DNA of 64,000 nt from Candidatus Hydrogenedentota bacterium (GCA_016791475.1 JAEUWI010000007.1:1-64000); one strand, 5' to 3'. Shown: positions 44,749 to 59,088, numbered from the stretch's first letter. Notes: a model not told the origin generated them from the letters alone. A program made the numbers and translations.

Positions 44749-45651
44749 TCAATCTACGTTCAACCGGCTCATACGCTTCTGTACCGCGGTGGCGAGTTCC
44801 CGCAGGCTCGCGGCCTTCGGGTAGGTCTTGCGATAGACCAGGACGATATCTCGCCGTGGCGTGGGGGAGTGCAGGGGGCGAATGGCGATGGGCGAGGCCG
44901 CCGCGAAGGGACCGATGGTGCTCAGCTTCGGCAGGAAGGTGCAGCCCATGCCCGCGCTGACCATCTGGCGCAGCGATTCGATGCTGGAGGCGCGGTAACC
45001 TTCGGGATCGGAGGGCTGGGTGCCCCGGCACAATTGAAGGGTCTGGTCGCGCATACAGTTGCCCTCCTCCAGCAGCAGGATCGCATCATCCGCAAGCTCC
45101 TGAACGGCCAGGCTCTTTTTACGGGCCAGTGGATGGTTCAGCGGTAACCCGGCGACAAATTCCTCACGAAAAAAGACGGCCCACTCAAGGTCGGAAGCCT
45201 CGATTGGAAGGGACATGATGGCGGCGTCCAACGCGGAATGCTGGAGTTGCTCCACGAGATTCCGGGTGATGTCTTCGCGGAGAAAGAGCTTTACGCCGGG
45301 GTAGATGGCCTTCAGTTCCGGCAGCAGGTGGGGCAGTAAATAGGGGCCGATGGTGGGAATCACGCCGAGATAGAGCGGCCCGGCCAGTTCCCCCGCAGCG
45401 CCCCGGGCCAGTTCGCGGATTTCGTGAATGCCATCGAGAATACTTCCGGCCCGGGCCAGGATTTGCTTGCCCGCCGCCGTGAGTCCGATGCGGCGCTTGC
45501 CACGCTCGAAGAGGGGCGTGCCCAGTTCCTGCTCCAGTTTGGCGATTTGCATGCTCAGGGTGGGCTGGGTGACGTGGCAGCGTTCGGCGGCCTGGCCGAA
45601 GTGGCGTGTTTCGGCGAGTGCGACGAAGTATTCGAGATCGCGGAGGGTCAT
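44749..45651 (-). CDS. oxyR: OxyR, LysR-family hydrogen peroxide sensor
   Basis: A 300-residue LysR-type regulator. The N-terminal winged HTH is standard (LEYFVALAETRHFGQAAERCHVTQPTLSMQIAKLE). The redox motif GNCMRDQTLQLC places cysteines at residues 199 and 208, exactly the positions of the disulfide-forming pair in E. coli OxyR. This makes the assignment firm. It is divergent from katG, with an OxyR-type binding site in the 184-bp gap, 36 bases from its own start codon. It should repress itself and activate katG on oxidation by peroxide. Confidence 0.95.
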   Translation of the reverse strand: MTLRDLEYFVALAETRHFGQAAERCHVTQPTLSMQIAKLEQELGTPLFERGKRRIGLTAAGKQILARAGSILDGIHEIRELARGAAGELAGPLYLGVIPTIGPYLLPHLLPELKAIYPGVKLFLREDITRNLVEQLQHSALDAAIMSLPIEASDLEWAVFFREEFVAGLPLNHPLARKKSLAVQELADDAILLLEEGNCMRDQTLQLCRGTQPSDPEGYRASSIESLRQMVSAGMGCTFLPKLSTIGPFAAASPIAIRPLHSPTPRRDIVLVYRKTYPKAASLRELATAVQKRMSRLNVD

Positions 45652-45754: not shown

Positions 45755-48037
<2,283 letters not shown>

Positions 48038-48205: not shown

Positions 48206-50587
<2,382 letters not shown>

Positions 50588-50777: not shown

Positions 50778-51479
50778 ATGCAGGCACCGTTGCCCGATGA
50801 TGAACAGAAACGTTTGCGGAAGTTGAGAAGTCTCGGGATTCTGGACACCTTCCCGGAAGCGGTCTACGATGACATCGTGTTCCTTGCTTCCGAAGTGGCC
50901 GATGCTCCGATAGCCCTTGTGACCCTTGTCGATCAAGACAGGCAGTGGTTCAAGGCGAAGACGGGCGTTGAGATCTCGGAGACCCACCGGGACTATGCGT
51001 TCTGCGCGCACGCCATACGCAAGCCCCACGAGTTACTGGTGGTGACCAATGCGACGAAGGATCCCCGGTTCGCCGATAACCCCTTCGTCACCGGTGGACC
51101 GAGCGTTCGCTTCTACGCGGGCGCACCCCTGGTCTGTTCCGATGGCGTCGCCCTGGGAACCCTCTGCGTCGTGGACAACAAGCCGCGGACCCTGACCCCG
51201 CTTCAGGAGCGGGCGTTGAAGGTCCTCTCGCGCCAGGTGGTCGCCCACATTGAACTGCGCGAAGCCCTGGCCCAGGTGAAGCGTCTTGAAGGTCTCTTCC
51301 CCATCTGCTCCGGGTGCAAGCGCATCCGGGACGACCAGGGGTACTGGAATCAGATCGAGGTGTACGTGAGCGAACATTCGGAAGCGGAATTCTCACACAG
51401 CATCTGCCCGGAATGTGTCGAGCGGCTCTACCCCAACGAGGCCGCTCACATGCGGAGGGGAGGCGAGCAGAGCCAGTAA
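50778..51479 (+). CDS. GAF-domain protein with C-terminal paired-cysteine motif
   Basis: A 233-residue soluble protein. Residues about 15-165 form a GAF domain of the type found in signalling proteins (LGILDTFPEAVYDDIVFLASEV, PIALVTLVDQDRQWFKA, RFYAGAPLV, LGTLCVVD). A short helix follows (LREALAQVKRLEGL). The C-terminus carries CSGC and, about 40 residues on, CPEC, in the pattern ICSGCKRIRDDQGYWNQIE to SICPEC, a common tail of response regulators and GAF proteins in delta-proteobacteria and planctomycetes. The cysteines could bind a metal. The gene stands alone; the signal is unknown. Confidence 0.85.
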   Translation: MQAPLPDDEQKRLRKLRSLGILDTFPEAVYDDIVFLASEVADAPIALVTLVDQDRQWFKAKTGVEISETHRDYAFCAHAIRKPHELLVVTNATKDPRFADNPFVTGGPSVRFYAGAPLVCSDGVALGTLCVVDNKPRTLTPLQERALKVLSRQVVAHIELREALAQVKRLEGLFPICSGCKRIRDDQGYWNQIEVYVSEHSEAEFSHSICPECVERLYPNEAAHMRRGGEQSQ

Positions 51480-51539
51480 TGGGATCCGCAGTGCGACGCA
51501 TGGCCCCAAAGCGGTGCTTAGCCCTTTGAGCGAAAATCC

Positions 51540-51569
51540 TTGTGTCTCTGGAGACATCTCCCGTAGAAT
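51540..51569 (+). promoter_or_regulatory. Promoter with overlapping palindrome before the sce7726-sce7725-RES genes
   Basis: TTGTGT (51540-51545) and TAGAAT (51564-51569) have an 18-bp spacer. TGTCTCTGGAGACA (51543-51556) is a perfect palindrome with a 2-base centre that covers the end of the -35. It is a likely operator of this module or of a host regulator. Confidence 0.6.
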
Positions 51570-51615
51570 CGAGGTAGAAGCTTTAGACACCAACCATGGA
51601 TTGACCGGAGAGAAC

Positions 51616-52503
51616 GTGAATCAGAGCGCTACTCAGTTGTCCGCGCTGACGCGTATATTTTCGTCCGCAGTCTACCAAGGACTTGCGCGGAAGGGGCGGT
51701 CCGCGCTCTTTCGGCGTCTCATCGATATCACTGGACTTGAATCGCGATGTGAGTCCAATGGAACGGTTGCCGACAGTTTCGACGCAGCATTCGATATCCT
51801 AAAAAGGGGCGGCTTCCGGGACCAGTATATCTACCGCTCGGCCCTCACCCAAAACATCTTGTTGGGCACGCACTCACTCCGCTCTGCCTCAATGCTCAGC
51901 GAATTTCGCGCCGGAAAATCCAGGACAGATTTGGTAATTCTCAATGGAACGGCGACGGCCTACGAGATCAAATCGGAACGGGATACGTTGGTACGCCTCG
52001 CCAACCAGATAGACAATTACCAGCGCGTCTTTGCCAAGATTTATGTAATTGCGAGTGATCGCCAGTTTGATGAAGTTTTGAATATGCTACCCATTGAAGT
52101 CGGTGTCATGTCTCTTTCTCCGCGTCTGAAGATCTCGACGAGACGAAAGGCGATTGAAACGTTTGACCGAATTTGTCCCTTAACCATATTTGAGTCACTT
52201 CGAACCGCCGAGGCAATGGCCATATTGAAAGCCCACGGCATTGCCGTCCCAGAGGTCTCCAATACCAAGATACGAAGCGTAATGCGCGCAGCTTTCTCCG
52301 ATCTGGATCCTAAACAGTTGCATACTGTTATGGTCCGCACAATGAAGCAGACTCGAAACCTGGCTGCACTCAGCGAACTTGTCGAGCAAGTCCCGAAATC
52401 GCTCCATGCCGCTGCCTTGTCGACCCCCATCCGAAAAAAGGATCATGAGCGATTGACGGAAGCGCTCAGACTGCCGCTATCGTCTACCAGGGCTTGGAAC
52501 TAG
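51616..52503 (+). CDS. sce7726-family protein, PD-(D/E)XK nuclease-like
   Basis: A 295-residue protein starting with GTG 51616 (GGAG 5 bases upstream). It resembles the sce7726 family. Residues 95-147 have a PD-(D/E)XK nuclease pattern: S-E-F at 95-97, D105 in RTDLVI, then E117-I-K119 in AYEIKSE, and Q131 to Y135 in NQIDNYQRV. The C-terminal half is helical and Arg/Lys-rich. The frame remains open for 200 bases upstream, but no Shine-Dalgarno or family similarity is seen there and it overlaps the GAF gene. Six bases separate it from the sce7725 gene. It is the first gene of a three-gene unit of lower GC than the surroundings. Confidence 0.8.
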   Translation: MNQSATQLSALTRIFSSAVYQGLARKGRSALFRRLIDITGLESRCESNGTVADSFDAAFDILKRGGFRDQYIYRSALTQNILLGTHSLRSASMLSEFRAGKSRTDLVILNGTATAYEIKSERDTLVRLANQIDNYQRVFAKIYVIASDRQFDEVLNMLPIEVGVMSLSPRLKISTRRKAIETFDRICPLTIFESLRTAEAMAILKAHGIAVPEVSNTKIRSVMRAAFSDLDPKQLHTVMVRTMKQTRNLAALSELVEQVPKSLHAAALSTPIRKKDHERLTEALRLPLSSTRAWN

Positions 52504-52509
52504 CTCATC

Positions 52510-53454
52510 ATGGCGCTCCCCTACTACCCCTATTTTCGCGGCAAACAGTACGAACTGATCACGATTCGTGAATGTGCTGGGTTGATGAAGAGTGCAGGCT
52601 TCGTGCCGATCATCGAGCCCGTAAAAGAGTCGCTTGGAGGGCTGGAAAGAACGCTGGCGGCGATATGTGATGTAAGAGGTGAAGCAATCGTCATTGTAAA
52701 TCCCAGTCATGGCGACCTCAAGCATGATGGCGAGAATATTTCCAATTTTCTCCGGAAGGAATTTGACCTACATACCATTTCTGCTGGAATCTTACTCACA
52801 AACGGAATGGACAGCGACCAAGCCATGAGCTACTGTGAAAAGAACAGAGATAGTAAGCTCGCGCTAGTACATGCAGGATTCACTGAACCTCGCATTCTGT
52901 CTGAGCGCTTATCGAGTGCCGGTGTGGGTATATTTCGGCATATATTCATTGAACAACACGCCGGGCGCTTGTATCGACGACATTTTGATAGAAGTGAAGG
53001 CGTTCTAATACAAAACGGGTTTAGTCGCCAACGGAACGCAGATTATCCAAGGATTGAGAAGTTTTCTGAATTGCATCTTACGTTTCATTACGAAAATGTA
53101 TCTGGCTTCGGCGATTTCTTAATCGTGGGCGACGAGTATTCGGAAAGCGGCGGACCGGCCTATGCGGTCGCTATTCATTTGACCTTTATTAACCCGGACG
53201 ATGAAGACATAATGTATATATATCATTTCATTTCAGACACAAATGATACACCAACCGATCCTGCGGGCAAGTTTGCGCAAGCACTGGGAAAGCTAGTTGA
53301 GAAGCTCGAATCGGGCACCTCACACCTGTTTGAGACCGAGGCGGTAAAGGAATTCCAAGAATTGCATAGAAAGGGGCATTTCCCAGGGCTTGGTTTCGTA
53401 AAAAAGCTCTCGATGAAGCACCACATCGAAACGTTAGCCCACTACCAAGGCTAA
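52510..53454 (+). CDS. sce7725-family protein (beta-protein-like)
   Basis: A 314-residue protein that carries the start typical of the sce7725 family: YPYFRGKQYELITIRE and later FVPIIEPVKESLGGLE. These features also recall the phage beta-protein family. The middle has IVIVNPSHGD and a SRQRNADYPRIEKFSELHLTF segment, suggesting an alpha/beta or TIM-like fold; no catalytic signature is established for the family. It is named for its neighbour in Sorangium cellulosum (sce7725 next to sce7726), and the same pairing is seen here. Gaps to the neighbouring genes are 6 and 7 bases. GC content is low: the line starting at 53221 has 26 G+C of 60. Confidence 0.85.
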   Translation: MALPYYPYFRGKQYELITIRECAGLMKSAGFVPIIEPVKESLGGLERTLAAICDVRGEAIVIVNPSHGDLKHDGENISNFLRKEFDLHTISAGILLTNGMDSDQAMSYCEKNRDSKLALVHAGFTEPRILSERLSSAGVGIFRHIFIEQHAGRLYRRHFDRSEGVLIQNGFSRQRNADYPRIEKFSELHLTFHYENVSGFGDFLIVGDEYSESGGPAYAVAIHLTFINPDDEDIMYIYHFISDTNDTPTDPAGKFAQALGKLVEKLESGTSHLFETEAVKEFQELHRKGHFPGLGFVKKLSMKHHIETLAHYQG

Positions 53455-53461
53455 CCCGACT

Positions 53462-54508
53462 ATGGCCCGCAAGCTTTGCTGCCCTGAATGCTTTGATGAT
53501 CGCTTTCTGCGGGACCACATATTTCCAAGCCTTACGACTGCCAAAGGGGATTGCAGCTTTTGCGGAGCCGCAAATGTCCCTCTAATCAAGCCAAGAGCTC
53601 TGCGAGATTACTTCGAACTCCTCGTGAGTGTATATGAGCCCAAGAATGCAGGAAAGACACTCGTAGAATGGCTGAAAGACGATTGGCAACTGTTCGAACG
53701 AGTTATACGTAGTGAAGACCAAGTATACGAGTTGCTTGGCACGATACTTGGCAACCAAAGAATTGTACGGAAGGCATTCCTGCCTTCAGAAGACTATACG
53801 AGTGAGGGGTTGGCAAAGTGGGATACGCTTCGTGACGAGATGATGCATCGGAATCGGTGGTTCCTGGATGAGAAGATCGATTTCGTGAGAATGGGGCAGT
53901 TGCTCGATCACCTTGTATCCCGTGAAGACGCGCGCAAGTGGTATCGCGCGCGTCAACATTCTGGTGGCAGAGCGTTCGCAGCAATTGAAATGGGGGCACC
54001 GCCCAAGCGTCTTGCCTCGCATGGGCGGGCCAATCCGGCGGGAATTCCGTACTTATACTTGGCATCCACTTCCAGAACTGCCGTTGCGGAGATTCGGCCC
54101 CACACAGGAGATTCCGTATATGTTGCGGAGTTTCGGACTCCAGAGCTTCGTGTCGTAGACCTCCGAAATCCCCTCAAAAGCGTTTCTCCCTTTCTTCTAT
54201 CAGATCCGGACGAAATAGGACAGCTGCGTGCCGATCTGCCCTTACTGCAGCGGCTGGGTGAGGAATTGACACGCCCTGTACTGCCCCACGCTGCGGCGAT
54301 CGACTATATTCCCAGCCAGTATCTCTGCGAATTCATAAAACGGAGCGGATTCGATGGCGTAATCTACAATAGTTCGGTCAGCAAAGGGTTCAACTTGGCC
54401 CTGTTCAATCCAGAGGTTGGGTCCCCAAAATCTGTTACGGGCTACAAAGTCCGAAAAGTATCGGTCGATGTGGAGCCATTCCAGAGGGCTCTACCTTCTG
54501 AAGGCTAA
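53462..54508 (+). CDS. HEPN/RES N-terminal zinc-ribbon protein with RES domain
   Basis: A 348-residue protein. Its N-terminus (C7-P-E-C10 and C31-S-F-C34, then LRDYFELLVSVYEP) fits the HEPN/RES N-terminal domain with a zinc-ribbon. Residues about 160-320 form a RES domain: WYRARQ near R162, GIPYLYLASTSRTAVAEIRP with E210, and DGVIYNSS with S304/S305. The Arg, Glu and Ser that give the RES family its name are present. Known RES toxins such as MbcT and ParT degrade NAD+ or transfer ADP-ribose. It is 7 bases after the sce7725 gene and is the probable effector of the unit. No Xre/MbcA-like antitoxin gene is adjacent. Confidence 0.85.
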   Translation: MARKLCCPECFDDRFLRDHIFPSLTTAKGDCSFCGAANVPLIKPRALRDYFELLVSVYEPKNAGKTLVEWLKDDWQLFERVIRSEDQVYELLGTILGNQRIVRKAFLPSEDYTSEGLAKWDTLRDEMMHRNRWFLDEKIDFVRMGQLLDHLVSREDARKWYRARQHSGGRAFAAIEMGAPPKRLASHGRANPAGIPYLYLASTSRTAVAEIRPHTGDSVYVAEFRTPELRVVDLRNPLKSVSPFLLSDPDEIGQLRADLPLLQRLGEELTRPVLPHAAAIDYIPSQYLCEFIKRSGFDGVIYNSSVSKGFNLALFNPEVGSPKSVTGYKVRKVSVDVEPFQRALPSEG

Positions 54509-56754: not shown

Positions 56755-59088
56755 ATGACCGACGCGGGTGACCTGAAGCGGATGCGGCTCCGCGTCTTCT
56801 ATTTTCTCGTCGCCGCGCTTTCGCTCACCCTGGTCGGCGCCTCCACTTCCGTGATGATTTCCGATTCGGCCTATACCGTGGCCACGTTCATGATCGTGGG
56901 AATGACGGGGTGGATGGTGCGCTGGGCGGAACTCTCCAAGTTTGTCTGGAAGCTGGTCAGTATCGCCATGGTCCTCGTTTGCATCTCCCAAACGCTGGAC
57001 CTGACCGAGAATTTTCCCCGGTTGGACGATGTCCCGGTTCTGGGGTCTCATTCCGCGTGGAACGGACGGGTTGCGTCTCTCAGCTTCCTGGCGGGGCTGG
57101 TCCTTACTCTGGCGACGCTCATGTTTGCTCTGATCGAAGCCCGTCTCGCCCTGGATCACTATCGCTTGCTGGCGGACAATGTCTCCGATGTAATATCCAT
57201 CTTCGATCTCGACCAGCGGTGTACCTATGTGAGCCCCGCCATCGCCCAGCTTCGGGGCTTTTCCGTCGACGAGGTACTCGTCCAGCCTCTTGAGGAACGC
57301 ATGACGCCGGAGTCCCGCACCGTTGCACTGGGGCATATGGCGCGGGAGCTGCAGCGACTCCAAGACGGCCTCCGCGCGCCCACGGACGTGACCATCATGG
57401 AGCTCGAATTGCTCCGGAAAGACGGCACGACCGTTTGGGCGGAGACCAGCATGCGTTTTCTTGCGGATCGCGACGGCAAGCCAAACCGCATTCTCGGCAT
57501 CAGCCGCGATATCTCGGCGCGGAAGGCCGCGGAATCGGAAGCCCGGCGTCTTACGGAGCGTCTCACTCTGGCCATCCGCGGCGGGGATCTCGGCGTGTGG
57601 GACTGGGACGCCGTCGCCGACGAGCTGGTTTGGGACGAGCGCATGTATGCCATTTACGGCGTCGATCCCGGCGAACATCCGGGCGCGTACCGCGACTGGC
57701 GGAGTTCGATCGTGCCGGAAGATCTGGCCCGCTCGGAGGGGGAACTTCGGGAGGCGATCAAAAGGCGCGGCGAGTTTCACAGCCAGTTCCGCGTGGTCCG
57801 TCCCGACGGTTCGATTCGCCATGTCGAGTCCCGGGCGGTCGTACTGTGCGACGATTCGGGCCGCGTGGTTCGTGTTACGGGCATGAACGCCGATATCACC
57901 GAGCGGGTGGAAACCGAGGCGGAGCGCGCCCGCCTGCAGGAACAGTTGAGCCAGGCCCAGAAGATGGAATCCATCGGCCGGCTCGCGGGCGGTGTGGCCC
58001 ACGATTTCAACAACATGCTACTGGTTATTCTCGGGCACGCTGAACTCGCGGGCGCCGGGGCCGTCAATGGCGCGCTGCAAAACCATGTCGAGGAAATTCG
58101 GAGCGCCGCATTGCGGTCGGCCGATCTGACCCGGCAATTGCTGACCTTCGCCCGCCAGCAGGCTGTCGCCCCCAGGCCCATGGACCTGAATCTGGCCACG
58201 GAGGGGATGCGCAAACTGCTCGAACGCCTGATCGGCGAAGGGGTCCGATTGAACTGGCGGCCCGGTCCCGACTTGTGGAAGGTCAAGCTGGATCCCTCTC
58301 AGGTGGATCAGATTCTGGCCAATCTGTGCGTGAATGCCCGCGACGCTATCAATGGTGTTGGCGAGATTATCGTGGAGACCGCCAACGTCACGGTCATCGC
58401 GGCCGAAGGCGCCGAAGGTTCCGATGAGTCCGATCTTGCGTCGGGAGATTACGTCCGTCTTTCCGTTTGCGACAACGGCTGCGGGATGGACCCGGCGGTG
58501 CTCGCGCGGATCTTCGAACCCTTCTACACGACCAAGAAGCCCGGAAAGGGCACGGGACTGGGCCTCTCCACCGTCTACGGGATCGTCCGGCAGAACAATG
58601 GCTTCATTCGCGTGGAGAGCGAGCCGGGACGTGGCACGAAGTTCACCATTGACTTGCCCCGATTCACCGGCCCGGCCCAGAGCGAGGAGCCCGCGGGCTG
58701 CGCCCCGCCGCCGCTGCCGGGAGGTGAAGTGATCCTCGTTGTCGAAGATGAGCTATCTATCCTCAAGCTCACTCAGTCCATGCTGAAGAAGCTCGGCTAT
58801 ACCGTCCTTACCGCCGCCACGCCCGGCGAGGCCCTGCGGCTTGCCGAATCGGGGAGCTCCCCCATTCAGCTTCTCTTGACCGATATCGTGATGCCCGAAA
58901 TGAACGGACGCGATCTGGCCGCCGCCCTGATGACCACCTTTCCCGATCTCCGGCACATTTATATGTCGGGCTACACCGCCGATGTCATTTCGCAGGACGA
59001 GATCCAGCGCGAAGGGGCAAATTTTATCCAGAAGCCTTTCGGAATTCAGGAGCTCGCCACCAAAGTGAGGCATGCGCTGGACTCCTGA
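56755..59088 (+). CDS. Membrane hybrid histidine kinase with PAS domains and receiver
   Basis: A 777-residue sensor kinase. Four hydrophobic N-terminal helices (residues about 13-125) are followed by two PAS domains (LLADNVSDVISIFDLDQ and LGVWDWDAVADELVW). A HisKA domain with the phospho-accepting His in GGVAHDFNNML, a HATPase domain (NLCVNARDAI, DNGCGMD, KGTGLGLSTVYGIV) and a C-terminal receiver (VVEDE, TDIVMPEMNG, KPF) complete it. Such kinases with a terminal receiver are widespread in this group. TATACT at 56722-56727 may be its -10. No response regulator with an output domain is nearby. Confidence 0.92.
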   Translation: MTDAGDLKRMRLRVFYFLVAALSLTLVGASTSVMISDSAYTVATFMIVGMTGWMVRWAELSKFVWKLVSIAMVLVCISQTLDLTENFPRLDDVPVLGSHSAWNGRVASLSFLAGLVLTLATLMFALIEARLALDHYRLLADNVSDVISIFDLDQRCTYVSPAIAQLRGFSVDEVLVQPLEERMTPESRTVALGHMARELQRLQDGLRAPTDVTIMELELLRKDGTTVWAETSMRFLADRDGKPNRILGISRDISARKAAESEARRLTERLTLAIRGGDLGVWDWDAVADELVWDERMYAIYGVDPGEHPGAYRDWRSSIVPEDLARSEGELREAIKRRGEFHSQFRVVRPDGSIRHVESRAVVLCDDSGRVVRVTGMNADITERVETEAERARLQEQLSQAQKMESIGRLAGGVAHDFNNMLLVILGHAELAGAGAVNGALQNHVEEIRSAALRSADLTRQLLTFARQQAVAPRPMDLNLATEGMRKLLERLIGEGVRLNWRPGPDLWKVKLDPSQVDQILANLCVNARDAINGVGEIIVETANVTVIAAEGAEGSDESDLASGDYVRLSVCDNGCGMDPAVLARIFEPFYTTKKPGKGTGLGLSTVYGIVRQNNGFIRVESEPGRGTKFTIDLPRFTGPAQSEEPAGCAPPPLPGGEVILVVEDELSILKLTQSMLKKLGYTVLTAATPGEALRLAESGSSPIQLLLTDIVMPEMNGRDLAAALMTTFPDLRHIYMSGYTADVISQDEIQREGANFIQKPFGIQELATKVRHALDS

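Follow-up and report, generated by a model that had tools for sequence, protein, structure and literature searches.

The 64,000 nt sequence analysed here (Candidatus Hydrogenedentota bacterium, GCA_016791475.1 JAEUWI010000007.1:1-64000; the window) carries three closely spaced genes for which an earlier note proposed an undescribed defence or toxin role. This raised the question of whether the three form a single system and, if so, which known systems it resembles and what its products may do.

Arrangement and composition of the locus

All three genes are on the plus strand. The first, at 51616-52503 with a GTG start, encodes a 295 aa protein of the sce7726 family (NCBIfam NF033832, E = 1.6e-51), the second, at 52510-53454, a 314 aa sce7725 protein (NCBIfam NF033831), and the third, at 53462-54508, a 348 aa protein with a zinc ribbon, a HEPN/RES-NTD1 domain and a RES domain. 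The head-to-tail order and the gaps of 6 bases (52503/52510) and 7 bases (53454/53462) were exactly as first described. Gene 1 had been placed from 51540, and the GTG at 51616 was found to be the better start, as the resulting 295 aa product agrees with the length of the family. The 136 bp intergenic leader of the operon (51480..51615, plus strand) includes a Shine-Dalgarno-like GGAGAG before this GTG. The operon had also been credited with its own promoter; this is unproven, because a sigma-70-type promoter does not stand out upstream of gene 1. No match was present in 51480-51615, where the scan, restricted to the sigma-70 type, scored much like shuffled sequence, and promoter and terminator signals at the locus were near background.

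The lower GC content reported for the island was reproduced (26 of 60 bases in the line at 53221 against 41 of 60 at 58021). Over its full length the module has 50.6% GC compared with 61.5 ± 2.2% in 554 further windows of its size across the 64 kb, the minimum of which was 55.1%, and GC3 is 0.50–0.59 in its genes against 0.77–0.79 in the flanking genes tested. A search for direct repeats or att-like ends flanking the island disclosed only 14-mers at chance level.

Upstream of the leader lies a gene for a GAF protein (50778-51479) with a C-terminal PICxxCKRIRDDxGYW segment, which occurs in at least seven further genes of the genome. It is preceded by tandem katG catalase-peroxidase genes (45836-48037 and 48218-50587), the second with an N-terminal hydrophobic extension resembling an export signal. 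The divergent gene beside them (44749-45651) is presumably OxyR-like, though this is a guess. The tandem katG arrangement is also kept in a congener, G037.

Conservation of the three genes as a unit

When GTDB genomes were scanned for sce7725, 54 loci were obtained which, with 4 phage-collection or viral contigs, made 58 further loci. The sce7726 gene was directly upstream of sce7725 in 57 of these and a RES gene directly downstream in 55, co-stranded throughout and mostly spaced by −30 to +15 bases. The exceptions were a distant Listeria/Enterococcus-type locus (L005), a Gluconobacter locus in which RES was not found (L033) and a locus at a contig end (L041). The hosts belong to the Pseudomonadota, Acidobacteria, Nitrospinota, Planctomycetes, Bacteroidota and Campylobacterota, and one is an archaeal MAG of the Archaeoglobaceae.

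As the GTDB scan is biased towards close relatives, draws of genomes not selected by sequence were added. Among 399 evenly drawn Pseudomonadota genomes, sce7725 was present in four, one of them the known-positive centre genome, and all four had the complete trio. Full-length RES matches of the trio type (E < 1e-88) were likewise confined to four genomes of the 399, always beside sce7725, the next match being at 2e-35. In the small phylum of the window itself, sce7725 was detected in 3 of 68 genomes, each time within the trio. The distance matrices of the three proteins were correlated with r = 0.93, 0.94 and 0.92, values reached in none of 2000 permutations. The earlier reading of the locus as a system had depended on homologues of the genes occurring together, and the neighbourhoods show that they are strongly linked. 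Thus, the three genes are one conserved functional module.

At the Marinomonas rhodophyticola locus (L006, 5099-7970) sce7726 and RES are each broken into two overlapping ORFs, which suggests frameshifts or sequencing errors. In the Listeria-phage-labelled contig L005 (3105-4954) and the Enterococcus plasmid L077 (4303-5954), a distant sce7725 follows a nuclease-like gene and is itself followed by a gene for a GNAT acetyltransferase, RES being absent there; this type is possibly a RES-less branch.

The sce7726 protein

The D-x11-E-x-K nuclease-like core noticed earlier is present as D105-x11-E117-x-K119, and in the family alignment it forms part of a longer pattern, E96...D105-x11-E117-x-K119...D123...Q131xxxY135 (51901..52020, plus strand). 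All 53 homologues share E96, D105, E117, K119, D123, R127 and Q131, with Y135 nearly invariant, and E96, D105, E117 and K119 are kept in 22 of 22 members of a set including P4 cII and ten Beta-associated sce7726 proteins. By its motif, E...D...ExK...QxxxY, the core is classed as PD-(D/E)XK nuclease-like, and we take the QxxxY element to place it in the RecB/Cas4-type branch of these nucleases. Profile searches of PDB sequences returned nothing useful, with no confident match for sce7726; the matches to CagY were rejected as repeat-helix noise.

The window protein matched the PADLOC model 'cll' (1.5e-21), a name which we read as that of the P4 cII model. Alignment of the sce7726 profile with P4 cII by hhalign gave a probability of 98.9% (E = 3.5e-17), and P4 cII itself matches NCBIfam sce7726 at 2.5e-44. 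On these profile comparisons, sce7726 is assigned to the P4 cII family.

The sce7725 protein

The second product had been recognised from its opening, and YYPYFRGKQYEL indeed occupies its residues 5-16 (52522..52557, plus strand), in agreement with an NCBIfam sce7725 match of 1.2e-99. The Y-x-P-x7-E spacing in this signature is common to Beta proteins. The AlphaFold model (pLDDT 92.6, pTM 0.92) has a predicted TIM-barrel-like fold, for which the PDB fold search found only generic TIM barrels at a TM of about 0.4, with no enzyme class indicated. With Foldseek, the best viral match was gp33 of Gordonia phage Powerball (TM 0.67, E = 2.3e-8), which is 78% identical to gp33 of phage DumpsterDude, a Pfam Beta_protein (4e-33). 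The Powerball gp33 gene overlaps gp32, which is annotated as an exonuclease and carries the sce7726 core.

Direct comparison was less clear-cut. Alignment of the sce7725 profile with Beta proteins by hhalign was end-to-end but weak (probability 45%, E = 2e-4), Pfam Beta_protein (PF14350) matched 1 of 51 family members (E = 0.0024) and did not match the window protein, and comparison of the single sequences of sce7725 and P4 beta gave no match, the signal arising only from family profiles and fold comparison. Remote profile match, fold and genomic context together point to sce7725 as a distant relative of Beta_protein. That the tie is of this remote kind counts against the immune-module reading developed below.

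In the Gordonia phage DumpsterDude (L083, 4001-5588) the Beta_protein gp33 adjoins an sce7726 fragment lying antisense to the annotated gp32. Since the fragment matches the opposite strand, the gp32 annotation looks wrong.

The RES protein

The third product had been described as a CxxC...CxxC ribbon followed by a RES domain with Arg, Glu and Ser present, and both parts hold up. The four cysteines of the zinc ribbon, C7xxC10...C31xxC34 (53480..53563, plus strand), are conserved in 54 of 54 homologues. The RES domain (53936..54421, plus strand; Pfam RES, 8.4e-22) is matched in 51 of 51 family members and has invariant R162, R164, R189, Y199, E210, R212, S304 and N311. Between the two, a HEPN/RES-NTD1 adaptor domain (53543..53875, plus strand) was seen at E = 0.036 with PF18870 in the window protein and at E ≤ 0.01 in 23 of 51 family members (best 1e-8).

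The product had also been labelled a HEPN protein. In the 2013 account, HEPN/RES-NTD1 is an alpha-helical domain in its own right, which precedes HEPN or RES domains in fusion proteins (PMC3710099), that is, an adaptor and not HEPN itself. The R-x4-H of the window protein is poorly conserved (R124 in 28/54, H129 in 25/54), and HEPN RNase activity was dismissed as a misreading of the domain label.

The solved folds nearest to the model of the RES protein (pLDDT 93.6) are MbcT, NatT, the P. putida RES protein and ParT. The active-site residues of NatT are R23, R82, Y93, S184 and N193 (PMC11535050), which plausibly correspond to R162/R164, R189, Y199, S304 and N311, as judged from order and spacing rather than superposition. 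The agreement with known RES toxins that had been anticipated was thus found in the fold and in the active-site residue types, and the third protein is predicted to be an effector of NAD+ phosphorylase/ADP-ribosyltransferase fold.

These features are shared with the RES-Xre toxin-antitoxin systems (NatRT, MbcTA, ParST and P. putida RES-Xre). Those systems have an Xre antitoxin, whereas the trio has none, possesses an N-terminal zinc ribbon and NTD1 on RES, and includes two extra partner genes; a domain search found no Xre or HTH domain, and hence no antitoxin of the Xre/MbcA/ParS type, in sce7726 or sce7725. The architecture of zinc ribbon, NTD1 and RES was noted already in 2013, and that account, as far as available, predicts RES to be an RNase and leaves the sce7725 and sce7726 partners unmentioned (PMC3710099). 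Among the genes given for a genomic island of Delftia, in the accessible part of its description, are RES, an 'ATP-binding protein' and sce7726.

Relation to gop-beta-cII and other Beta loci

In the satellite phage P4, gop-beta-cII protects E. coli from lambda and P1, and its Gop protein is toxic when Beta is missing (PMC9122126). At the curated cut-off, 14 confident sce7726 genes were found in the 399-genome draw; four adjoin sce7725 and RES, and ten adjoin a Beta-family gene convergently. As all 14 adjoin either sce7725 or Beta, sce7725 sits in the slot of Beta, the two being exchanged beside sce7726.

The earlier note knew of no characterised system of this composition. For the exact trio this stands, as it was not found as a described system in the literature searched, which likewise yielded no experiments or activity measurements on its homologues; the link to gop-beta-cII (PMC9122126), through sce7726 as cII and sce7725 as akin to Beta, had been missed. 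Each system has an sce7726/cII-family gene and a single toxin-like gene, and the neighbouring partner, Beta in P4 and the putatively Beta-like sce7725 in the trio, is presumably TIM-barrel-like in both. The toxin of P4 is Gop, a membrane-like protein of 133 aa with a coiled-coil-like tail, whereas that of the trio would be a soluble RES enzyme; Gop was considered as a RES relative, and no similarity was found. The trio is co-directional in the order cII-Beta-toxin, while P4 has gop-beta with a convergent cII, a difference in order and strand that also speaks against the immune-module reading. Further, sce7725 lies outside Pfam Beta_protein, to which the Beta of gop-beta-cII belongs. With Gop absent and the arrangement different, the trio is not a member of gop-beta-cII, though its mode of action is plausibly similar.

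The gene upstream of Beta varies, being Gop in P4 and an M78 (ImmA/IrrE-type) peptidase in several bacteria. A Beta-family gene follows an M78 peptidase gene in L072, L074, L075 and L076 (by Pfam) and in L124 and L126 (by eye), and a membrane-protein gene precedes the peptidase in L072, L075, L124 and L126. This arrangement of M78 peptidase and Beta, at times with a membrane-protein gene, is apparently undescribed. These loci and PD-lambda-2 combine a Beta-family protein with a toxin module, much as the trio would combine the putatively Beta-like sce7725 with RES, and defence by PD-lambda-2 requires its P4 Beta-like third component (PMC9519451). The toxin module of PD-lambda-2 is HigB/HigA-peptidase, with RES absent, in contrast to the trio.

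The nuclease raises a different explanation, in which the trio is a restriction-like system: sce7726 would cut foreign DNA, sce7725 would act as specificity or assembly partner, and RES would be a back-up when cutting fails. The E-D-ExK-QxxxY core is invariant in all branches, the Powerball partner gp32 carries its exonuclease annotation, and two arrangements lack RES altogether, namely the nuclease-like gene with sce7725 in the Enterococcus/Listeria branch and the sce7726-sce7725 pair of Gluconobacter. Yet the module has no methylase or other partner for telling self from non-self, and the toxicity of P4 Gop favours a system led by its toxin, so that this explanation is considered improbable.

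Mobility and genomic neighbourhood

Copies of the trio were found on plasmids of Moraxella, Rhizobium, Shinella and Pseudorhizobium, and some of the carrying plasmids are conjugative or mobilizable. A plasmid copy in Arthrobacter is interrupted by an IS, and the Salmonella houtenae copy adjoins integrative-conjugative-element genes and an integrase. Many other copies are chromosomal. Plasmids, the ICE-associated locus, the sporadic spread (3 of 68 genomes in its own phylum) and the low GC3 argue that the trio is probably a horizontally moving module.

Such mobility would also suit an addiction (toxin-antitoxin) module whose role is to stabilise plasmids and integrative elements, with RES as toxin, sce7725/sce7726 as antitoxin and any phage protection incidental. 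RES domains are a classic example of type II toxins, the trio occurs on plasmids and in the ICE-associated locus, and P4 gop-beta has been described as a toxin-antitoxin pair (PMC9122126). A minimal pair, however, would not need two of the three genes, among them one with an invariant nuclease core, the related gop-beta-cII (PMC9122126) and PD-lambda-2 (PMC9519451) protect against phage, and many copies reside in chromosomes. We consider addiction unlikely as the main role, though less so than restriction.

In the congener G035 the module is at the same katG-GAF locus but across the GAF gene from its position in the window, and in G037 the same katG-katG-GAF locus is without it. In the tree the window and G035 are sisters with weak support (0.86) and long branches, which would fit either a single early arrival followed by rearrangement or two arrivals. 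The shared position in two congeneric genomes could be taken to mean that the module is a stress-response regulator of NAD metabolism belonging to the katG/OxyR-like neighbourhood of the genus, and not to immunity. Against this, the two copies flank the GAF gene on different sides, a third genome has the same locus without the module, the GC3 is alien and the neighbours scanned in other taxa are diverse, so that such a role is very improbable.

Genes near copies of the module included Septu-type, type III restriction, retron/RT, Fic and integrase matches, an uncontrolled observation that is compatible with location in defence islands.

Proposed function

The explanation that we favour, and hold to be probable, is that the trio is a horizontally moving immune module, distantly related to P4 gop-beta-cII, in which Gop has been replaced by a RES NAD+ phosphorylase and which acts by abortive infection. 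The RES protein would be the toxin, cleaving NAD+, probably by phosphorolysis, and arresting growth through NAD depletion. The TIM-barrel protein sce7725, in the place of P4 Beta, would hold or license it, and the PD-(D/E)XK protein sce7726 would sense or cut invading DNA. Upon infection the RES enzyme would be released, and the cell would stop ahead of phage multiplication. A point against this is that, according to the NatRT authors, immunity has not been linked to any RES toxin-antitoxin system, the known NAD-targeting immune systems using TIR or SIR2 (PMC11535050).

A broader proposal seems to us evenly balanced, namely that RES, as NAD+ phosphorylase, is a phage-defence effector and that gop-beta-cII, the Beta and M78-peptidase loci, PD-lambda-2 and the trio constitute one superfamily with a shared TIM-barrel Beta/sce7725 protein, usually an sce7726 nuclease, and swappable toxins.

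If true, the widespread RES family would gain its first role in immunity, and one more NAD-destroying effector would join TIR and SIR2. The module would give a role to two families named only after Sorangium genes, sce7725 and sce7726, and gop-beta-cII would be no single oddity of P4 but part of a modular family, in which exchangeable toxins are combined with a shared nuclease/TIM-barrel pair.
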